Part shown: one piece after another, positions 14,314-16,072 of the stretch
Layout of the letters: each line of letters starts with the position of its first letter
Numbering within the stretch: the first letter of the stretch is position 1
From: a virus
Strand: one strand, 5' to 3'
Virus record (IMG/VR): IMGVR_UViG_3300044972_000644
Location: 1 to 20,774 of that record
Length of the DNA: 20,774 nucleotides
The notes under the pieces: generated by a model
What the model was told of the DNA's origin: nothing
What the model saw: the letters and a program-made list of their open reading frames with translations, nothing else
Databases searched by the model: none
Translations under genes and position numbers: made by a program

Positions 14314-14321
14314 CAAAGTTA
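14314..14321 (-). promoter_or_regulatory. Candidate promoter box TAACTTTG, short-leader
   Basis: TAACTTTG is an exact match to TAnnTTTG. It begins two bases after the terminator U-run and ends 13 nt before the ATG at 14300, so a transcript from it would have a leader of only a few bases. At -33 there is TTTA rather than TTTG, 18 nt upstream inside the terminator loop. Placement straight after a terminator matches the arrangement at 16043-16099. Confidence 0.5.
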
Positions 14322-14322
14322 T

Positions 14323-14352
14323 AAAAAAGGGTGGGCATTTAAACACCCACCC
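14323..14352 (-). terminator. Intrinsic terminator after the MCP gene
   Basis: The minus-strand RNA has GGGTGGG, a 10-nt loop and CCCACCC (7 bp, all but one pair G/C), followed by six U. It lies after the MCP stop and also after the end of the -1 frame extension (14359), so the extension stays inside the MCP transcript. It is a classical Rho-independent terminator. Confidence 0.9.
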
Positions 14353-14358
14353 CTCAAT

Positions 14359-14439
14359 TTATTGTGATAGTAAATTGTCACCATCTTGACCCAACAATTC
14401 ATCTAAGTTCTCACTCAGTAGAAATTGTGGGCTATCTAT
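14359..14439 (-). CDS. -1 frame extension of the major capsid protein
   Basis: After the MCP stop the -1 frame is open for 26 codons (IDSPQFLLSENLDELLGQDG, then DNLLSQ) and ends at TAA two bases before the terminator region. It has no ATG of its own; the only possible separate start would be a TTG inside the MCP gene. The reading is acidic, Leu-rich and protein-like. If the ribosome slips on A AAC CCA (14439-14445), the product is MCP plus 26 residues, 373 aa. A short C-terminal tail like this could be a minor capsid form comparable to T7 gp10B. The open frame and slip-site layout are seen; use is inferred. Confidence 0.6.
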   Translation of the reverse strand: MDSPQFLLSENLDELLGQDGDNLLSQ

Positions 14440-14445
14440 GGGTTT
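14390..14445 (-). promoter_or_regulatory. Programmed -1 frameshift signal (slip site + hairpin)
   Basis: In the MCP frame, GTA AAC CCA TAG places the heptamer A AAC CCA (X XXY YYZ form, 14439-14445) right before the stop. A 7-nt spacer (14432-14438) follows, then a 42-nt hairpin (14390-14431): CCCACAATT pairs with AATTGTTGGG with one bulged U, and inside it CTGAGT pairs with ACTTAG around a GAGA loop. Heptamer, 5-9-nt spacer and stem-loop are the three canonical parts of bacterial and viral -1 frameshift signals. The CCC slip codon is less common than A or U runs, so efficiency may be low. Confidence 0.6.
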
Positions 14446-15479
14446 ACAATTGAAACACAATTCACATAGTTAACACCAGCAAATTTATCTCCAGCCTCGT
14501 AGATGTCAGTTGGTAAAGTAACAATCTTACCAGTAGCAGTTACGATAACAGATAAGTTACCACAATCATCTTTTAATGTAAGGTCAACTGGTACACCAGC
14601 AGGAGTGAATGCAATTGTACGTGAGTAACCAGCACCAACAGATGGTGTAAAGTTTGAATTCCACTCAGCCAAATTGTAAGATAACCATTGGATTGCTCCA
14701 GCAGTAGTTACCAATGCTTTAGTTTGACCACCTTGTGCAGTTGCAACACGAGCATCATAAGCAAAACCAAAACCATTTTGTTGAGAGATTGCTAAGATAT
14801 CAATACCACTTTGTGAGCAGCATCCAGCCTTAACAGCATTAGCATATCTCTGCATTGCTGCACCACCAAAAGCAATTGGTGCTGCTGGGTAGTTAGCCAT
14901 TGCAGTTGCTTGAGTAATATCAGCAAGTGCAAATGGGTTAACATCATTAGTACCATTAATAGTATTTACTTCTAAGCAATCACCAGTCACAGTGTAGAAA
15001 CCTTCAACATCAGTACCCCAGTTACCGATTGCAGCAACTGCTTGTGCAGCAGCAACAGATGCAACTTTTCTATCAATTACATCCATAAGGCGCATAACTG
15101 ATTCAAGAAAGTATACACTATTATCTTGGCAATGACGAGCAATATCAGCACCTGAAATTAATTGGGATGCTTGATAAGTGTCAGTAGTCTCTAATGTGTA
15201 GGTCTCAGTTGAGTCACCATATACATTAGTAGCAGTACAATTACTAATATCAGCAGCAGCAAGAACTTCTGATTCGGGTAGACGTTGAATCCATCTTGCT
15301 TCAACGGTTCTCAATTTTCCGTTTCCAGTAGAAACTTCTTGACGGATTAATTTAACATTTTCAGGTGAGTTAAGATACTCAAGAAAAGGTAAAGACTCAC
15401 GTTGACCTACCTCAATGAAGAGTTGACCAAGTGGCATTTGAATGTTTGGACATTCTGAAAGTATACGAGAAATTGACAT
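14436..15479 (-). CDS. Probable major capsid protein
   Basis: The product has 347 aa. It follows a scaffold-like gene and has its own promoter, long leader and terminator, as expected for the most abundant virion protein. The N-terminus (MSISRILSECPNIQMPLGQL) is helical, a Thr-rich part is at about 80-102, and an Ala-rich helix (VASVAAAQAVAAIGNWG) is at about 138-155. The C-terminal half is strand-rich (VDLTLKDDCGNLSVIVTATG, IVTLPTDIYEAGDKF). The composition and layout fit a divergent HK97-fold capsid protein, but no strict motif proves it. Ten or so Cys residues, including GCCSQ and HCQD, are unusual for a capsid protein. Its 3' end carries a likely -1 frameshift signal. Confidence 0.75.
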   Translation of the reverse strand: MSISRILSECPNIQMPLGQLFIEVGQRESLPFLEYLNSPENVKLIRQEVSTGNGKLRTVEARWIQRLPESEVLAAADISNCTATNVYGDSTETYTLETTDTYQASQLISGADIARHCQDNSVYFLESVMRLMDVIDRKVASVAAAQAVAAIGNWGTDVEGFYTVTGDCLEVNTINGTNDVNPFALADITQATAMANYPAAPIAFGGAAMQRYANAVKAGCCSQSGIDILAISQQNGFGFAYDARVATAQGGQTKALVTTAGAIQWLSYNLAEWNSNFTPSVGAGYSRTIAFTPAGVPVDLTLKDDCGNLSVIVTATGKIVTLPTDIYEAGDKFAGVNYVNCVSIVNP

Positions 15480-15599: not shown

Positions 15600-15617
15600 C
15601 TTTTTTTAATTACCAAA
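15589..15617 (-). promoter_or_regulatory. Candidate second promoter inside the MCP leader
   Basis: TTTG at 15614-15617, a 17-nt spacer and TATCTTTA at 15589-15596 differ from the consensus only in the last base. It would start a transcript near 15584, leaving a leader of about 105 nt before the MCP and separating the upstream structured RNA from capsid synthesis. The TTTG also takes part in the TTTGGTA/TACCAAA helix, so the site may be promoter, RNA structure or both. Confidence 0.45.
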
Positions 15618-16042
15618 CATAACAAGGTCTACTTCCGTGCAAGGGTAAGTAGATAGATAATGAATATCTAACTGACCTCTTAGTAACCTATCCGTGTACC
15701 CCTTTTCTATATTTGAGGTGCTAACCTTGTCTCAACAATCTATCTAATGTTAGTCTTTATAAGTAACCCAATTAACTACTAAGGGATTGATACCCTCTTG
15801 CACTTGGTCGATGTTGACACCTTGTAAGTCATTGCATCTACGTAGCCATTGTTTGTTGGTCTCTTTAACGTAGTTTTTGATTGGTATTCCTACCCTATAC
15901 TCAGGTCAGTTCGTAACGTATCAACTGACTCAGTAGGACTTAGTAAAAATAAAAAAGCCCTGACTGGTGCGACAATCAAGACTTTTAAACAAGGTATTTT
16001 ATTTCCCTCAAAGTTCTTTACGATAGTCGCACCCATCTGTTA

Positions 16043-16072
16043 CAAAGATAAAAAATAAATTAATACCACAAA
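16043..16072 (-). promoter_or_regulatory. Consensus Bacteroidota promoter for the MCP unit
   Basis: TTTG at 16069-16072, an 18-nt spacer and TATCTTTG at 16043-16050 match the Bacteroidota consensus exactly in both boxes and spacing. Its -33 box lies in the U-tract of the terminator at 16070-16099, so old transcription ends where new transcription begins. The predicted start, near 16038, places the first leader helix (GGTGCGAC) at the very 5' end of the RNA. Confidence 0.75.

Follow-up and report, generated by a model that had tools for sequence, protein, structure and literature searches.

A probable programmed -1 frameshift that would extend the putative major capsid protein in a family of lake phages

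Known extended capsid proteins and the locus in the window

Frameshifting of -1 in the capsid gene is established for the phages T7, T3, A2, A118 and A500, and of +1 for PSA (PMC5009743). Several of these frameshifted capsid proteins carry Ig-like extensions, and a review remarks that the direction of the shift is indifferent (PMC5009743). Here we analysed a 20,774-nt stretch of viral DNA (the window), in which the probable major capsid gene very probably carries a programmed -1 ribosomal frameshift site at its 3′ end. As in gene 10 of T7 and T3 (gp10A/gp10B), slippage by -1 close to the capsid stop codon would produce a minor form with a C-terminal extension (PMC5009743). However, X_XX is G_GU in T7, where a CCCC within the terminator, more than 200 nt downstream, is involved (PMC5009743), whereas the lake phages described here have A_AA and a hairpin 5-6 nt downstream. 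The T7 and T3 extensions are also longer, and Ig-like in T3, in contrast to an acidic repeat of 25-28 residues. A2 and A118/A500 (-1) as well as PSA (+1) likewise obtain a second capsid form by frameshifting (PMC5009743; Garcia 2004, cited in PMC10885494). A2 and the Listeria phages have Gram-positive hosts, Ig-like or other extensions and other shift sites, whereas the lake phages have probable Bacteroidota hosts and include whole clades without the tail. SPP1 gp17.1/gp17.1* shares a proline codon beside the stop and a minor extended form of a major structural protein, but the shift is +1 and not -1, the protein belongs to the tail tube and not to the head, and the extension has 87 residues (PMC6316719). 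The initial annotation regarded a frameshifted capsid in such a phage as new; the kind of recoding is known from T7, T3, A2, A118, A500 and PSA (PMC5009743), and what holds is its occurrence in an unrelated family.

No sequence relation to the capsids of T7 or other sequenced phages was found. A tblastn search of the capsid gene against 50,697 phage records gave no match, and scans of GTDB genomes revealed no relatives of the gene. The phages are uncultivated, come from lakes and form a family unrelated to the known frameshift-capsid phages. Their hosts are probably Bacteroidota, based on promoter-like TAnnTTTG motifs.

The probable major capsid gene occupies 14439-15479 on the minus strand of the window (14436-15479 including the stop; 347 codons in the 0 frame of the list of open reading frames) and ends in ATT GTA AAC CCA TAG. 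As initially proposed, the slippery heptamer A AAC CCA lies in X XXY YYZ phase at 14439-14445 (minus strand) and abuts the 0-frame stop UAG at 14436-14438 (minus strand). A stimulatory hairpin is predicted from folding and covariation at 14389-14432 (minus strand). The hairpin and its GAGA loop had been described correctly, but it measures 44 nt with 11 + 6 main pairs instead of 42 nt with 9 + 6 bp, and the distance from the heptamer to the first pair is 6 nt instead of 7 nt. The site folds better than expected by chance, with a z-score of -3.1 for a 97-nt stretch and -5.3 with the terminator included. The -1 frame is open and conserved at 14359-14439 (minus strand), giving 26 codons and TAA; read from the heptamer it begins with I D S P Q F, ends with N L L S Q and forms the tail IDSPQFLLSENLDELLGQDGDNLLSQ. 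Both the open frame that ends before a terminator and the acidic, leucine-rich composition agree with the first description; the tail contains no lysine or arginine. The tail stop (TAA, 14359-14361) is located a few bases before a strong intrinsic terminator at 14321-14355 (minus strand), which was recognized as a G+C hairpin and T run in a fold of 14320-14460 and was not flagged by a simple terminator scan.

The T run of the terminator (14314-14355, minus strand) is directly continued by TAACTTTG, which is a -7 motif of the Bacteroidota type (TAnnTTTG). It lies 13 nt upstream of the start codon (ATG) of the following 337-aa gene, so that the terminator overlaps the promoter and the downstream mRNA is almost leaderless.

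From the gene order, the gene at 14436-15479 (minus strand) probably encodes the major capsid protein. In the L001 record the order is TerL, structural genes, portal, a 304-residue protein, a small ORF, a scaffold-like 271-residue protein and the capsid gene; the portal matches phrog_7376 (E 1e-21). Between the window and the related record L016, the capsid gene is 84% identical, compared to 79% for the portal and 71% for the scaffold-like protein, and is the best conserved of the module genes compared. The capsid protein had no match among PHROGs, Pfam, NCBIfam and PDB profiles. AlphaFold was run twice, on 22 and on 38 homologues, and returned unusable models (pLDDT about 37); E-loop-like strands and a 40-residue helix at 110-151 appear in an HK97-compatible order, which carries no weight at this pLDDT.

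In the leader between the scaffold-like and capsid genes, positions 15601-16049 (minus strand) hold a stretch of 440-450 nt that contains no ORF. Copies of this stretch are present in 12 loci that belong to two groups distant from each other (57-59% identity from one group to the other), whereas close relatives lack it. Its consensus fold has 58 pairs, with 97.8% of cells paired and double changes in 12 pairs, and no Rfam family was matched. It looks like a mobile structured non-coding RNA.

Conservation of the probable shift site among relatives

More than 200 relatives of the capsid gene were collected from IMG/VR, and removal of duplicates left 163 distinct 3′ ends. An open -1 tail is found in 125 of them, five have a UGA followed by a 0-frame tail, and 33 are tail-less. 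Counts out of 105 given below refer to the first 137 distinct ends, which comprise 105 with the frameshift arrangement, 27 with none and five with UGA. The -1 tail stays open down to 62% identity, and the 125 tail-bearing ends encode 71 different peptides. The most distant of them, L276, is 62% identical to the window protein, ends in AAA CCC G TAA, encodes the tail VTSNTNLLLENGDDLLLQNGDLLIL and has a hairpin of its own (z -4.0). As a side observation, the records L060 (62,297 bases) and L057 (52,227 bases) each contain two TerL genes about 35 kb apart, while many related records are only 34-38 kb long; these two are probably chimeric or concatenated assemblies.

The sequence AAACCC(A/G) is present at the gene end in 120 of 125 tail-bearing ends but in only 8 of 33 tail-less ends (two-by-two table 25, 8; 5, 120). 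At other places in 126 capsid genes the heptamer was seen a single time. Where relatives lack the arrangement, tail and heptamer were mainly lost together: 25 of the 33 tail-less ends, on independent branches, also lack the heptamer and read AAT CCT, GTT AAC CCT, AAC GCT, AAC TCT and similar. The initial annotation had named relatives that keep the capsid end while losing the heptamer or the -1 frame as the case that would speak against it. The eight tail-less ends that retain the heptamer do count against a frameshift. When the last 15 codons are left out of the tree, 15 changes are required to explain the presence and absence of the tail. Of 13 independent pairs with one tailed and one tail-less member, about 9.5 show a change of the heptamer in the same direction and none in the opposite direction (p about 0.002). 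Outside the gene end, AAT makes up approximately one third of the asparagine codons and CCT or CCC approximately half of the proline codons of the capsid genes, so that AAC CC(A/G) at the end is not a codon habit.

It is possible, though on balance rather doubtful, that only the proline tRNA slips by -1 at C CCR in the P site with the stop codon in the A site, and that the A AA part merely helps. C CCR is found in all 125 tail-bearing ends. These include five ends in at least two lineages (L005/L010 and L368/L370/L378) that have kept the tail after exchanging A AAC CCR for GTC CCG before UAA, so that only C CCG remains slippery. The exchange suggests an alternative single-tRNA slip site; in these ends, either single-tRNA slippage at C CCG suffices or expression of the tail was recently lost. 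SPP1 gp17.1* shifts at a comparable proline-stop site, CCC UAA, in the +1 direction (PMC6316719). On the other hand, in several ends CCG is separated from the stop by one sense codon (CCG TCA TAG, CCG GCA TAG and CCG TCT TAG), and in one (L034) the stop is displaced by two codons. In all of these the heptamer is kept and the -1 frame is open. Retention of A AAC CCG at displaced stops fits tandem slippage at the heptamer.

A sister clade with UGA before the tail

The five UGA ends (L016-L020) form one clade with a tree support of 100 that is sister to the clade of the window. With L038 and L058, which are fragments with the same UGA end, the arrangement is known from five distinct sequences in seven records. 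The ends read NNA or VNA, then UGA, then an in-frame tail of the form (M/I)(T/A)ELNLLTEDGSDLTTE..NLLV, which comprises 24 codons in the 0 frame, contains the motif LLTEDG and aligns without gaps to frameshift tails such as that of L072 (NIDMNLLLENGDDLLLQNGDTMLL). A stable hairpin begins 7 nt after the UGA. The conserved in-frame ORF thus follows an otherwise ordinary stop codon: in these contigs UGA ends the portal gene, the downstream 337-aa gene and others, and it is absent inside homologous genes. The simplest reading is that leaky UGA readthrough probably yields the same kind of minor extended protein in this clade, an arrangement that the initial annotation had not anticipated.

UGA could instead be read as selenocysteine or as a sense codon, without any readthrough. 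Bacterial SECIS elements sit roughly where this hairpin lies relative to the UGA. Nevertheless, this explanation is improbable, since UGA terminates other genes of the same contigs and occurs within none of the homologues, and a scan of the loci L016 and L020 revealed no tRNA gene. A general sense reading of UGA was rejected on the same ground, that it ends other genes there. The coat protein of Qbeta reportedly also has a minor form, A1, with a C-terminal extension reached through a leaky UGA. Qbeta is an RNA phage with a long extension, whereas the L016 clade has a tail of 24 residues that shares its origin with the frameshift tails of the sister clades. For tailed dsDNA phages, an incomplete collection of literature contained no description of a major capsid protein extended by readthrough.

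Hairpin, tail peptide and the possible role of a minor form

The spacing of the hairpin is conserved. Nearly all tail-bearing lineages have a spacer of 3-7 nt between shift site and hairpin; it measures 5 nt in 67, 6 nt in 16 and 3-4 nt in 20 of 105 ends. The 55 nt downstream of the shift site have a median z of -4.2 over 78 distinct tail-bearing relatives, while the hairpin sequences themselves differ widely among lineages. In the 27-residue class (29 distinct sequences), the outer 10-bp stem is 97.9% paired with double changes in 6 of 10 pairs. All five covariation measures exceed those of 500 out of 500 shuffles, and pairing drops to 29-49% in slid versions. In the 26-residue class (20 sequences), 96.5% of cells are paired, five pairs show double changes, and 36 double-change cells were counted, whereas shuffles gave 11.9; in this class, two of the five measures are no higher than in shuffled alignments. 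A different hairpin, nearer to the shift site, is present in the lineage of L191, L192 and L194, whose arms are TTTGTT/AACAA, CTTCTT/AAGAA and CTGC/GCAG in the three members. For L105 and L190, folding at the hairpin was no better than in shuffled sequences.

The tails have 25-28 residues and a net charge of -3 to -7, are almost devoid of lysine and arginine, and form an acidic, leucine-rich repeat of the type (L/I)L(S/T)(Q/E)...LL(T/S)QxGxD. Comparison with PHROG, PDB and phage records yielded nothing meaningful. With 25-28 residues, an acidic repeat and no PHROG or PDB match, the tail does not correspond to an Ig-like domain of approximately 100 residues. That the motif is a common repeat in other phage proteins was rejected, as it was seen only at the capsid gene end in the loci examined. 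The -1 frame shows a protein-like codon pattern in which position 2 is most conserved and position 3 most variable. In two length classes, dN/dS is 0.27 and 0.25 in the -1 frame, compared to 0.81 and 0.52 in the 0 frame and 1.62 and 1.81 in the +1 frame; stops are absent from the -1 frame and present in the 0 frame of 14 of 14 and 8 of 8 sequences. The -1 ORF is therefore under purifying selection, with dN/dS at about 0.26. The part of the tail beyond the hairpin has the same codon pattern, so RNA structure alone is no explanation.

The locus thus combines an X XXY YYZ heptamer correctly phased with the 0 frame, a 3′ structure about 5-9 nt downstream and a selected -1 ORF, as is expected of a programmed -1 frameshift site. 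The three checks suggested at the outset, on conservation of the heptamer, covariation of the hairpin and constraint in the -1 frame, all came out in support of the frameshift. It is very likely that a minor extended capsid form is real and selected.

Two other explanations of the cassette are far less probable. The tail might be a separate small protein made by termination and reinitiation at the capsid stop, with the hairpin as reinitiation signal. Its frame runs across the stop codon, as is typical of coupled reinitiation, and an ATG, GTG or TTG precedes the motif in 46 of 105 -1 ORFs. We consider this highly unlikely, because 59 of 105 tails have no such codon ahead of the last 20 codons, the start codons that are present occur at no conserved place, and AAC CCR is conserved upstream of the stop, where reinitiation does not need it. 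Separate initiation is thus not general, and translation of the tail on its own was rejected. It is equally hard to credit that the hairpin is only a structure of the mRNA 3′ end associated with the terminator and that chance or ancestry has left the -1 frame open. The terminator does directly follow, and 3′ hairpins can stabilise abundant capsid mRNAs. Against this stand a pattern of codon positions and a dN/dS that are seen in the -1 frame alone and extend to the region beyond the hairpin, the linkage of tail and heptamer on the tree, and the tail-less relatives, which retain the terminator and have no hairpin. Transcriptional slippage is unlikely, as AAACCC(A/G) contains no long homopolymer, and assembly or sequencing error was rejected, as the arrangement recurs in more than 120 distinct sequences.

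With programmed -1 frameshifting, most ribosomes would stop at UAG or UAA and release the protein of 347 residues. The hairpin, together with the stop codon adjoining the shift site, would slow a minority of them, in which the asparagine and proline tRNAs would re-pair from AAC CCR to AAA CCC. These ribosomes would pass the stop unread and append 25-28 residues, which would result in a minor form of 373 residues in the phage of the window. On the virion, the tail would most likely form a sparse surface feature or one near a vertex or the portal, needed on few subunits and impossible on all. We lean towards the view that the acidic tail is the unit under selection and is kept at low dose by interchangeable recoding, through A AAC CCR, GUC CCG before a stop, or UGA readthrough. 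This includes slippage at GUC CCG-stop only as a possibility in at least two lineages, and allows whole lineages to dispense with tail, site and hairpin.

What is new compared to the described systems is the unrelated family, the short acidic repeat tail, the local covarying hairpin, the repeated loss of the cassette and the probable swap to readthrough. If the latter is true, we know of no earlier tailed dsDNA phage whose major capsid protein is extended by readthrough. Gene callers would truncate the capsid protein across a widespread lake phage family. The site would also provide an experimentally compact recoding signal for Bacteroidota, in which Shine-Dalgarno-type stimulators are little used. 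The purpose of a few tailed copies of the shell protein has been open since T7, and the known cases are isolated. With more than 120 distinct natural versions, sister clades that probably differ in their recoding mechanism and a cassette gained or lost independently about a dozen times, this family offers a comparative system for the function of the extended form and the tuning of its ratio. If the recoding mechanisms are indeed interchangeable, the family would be a natural experiment on the purpose of a minor capsid extension.
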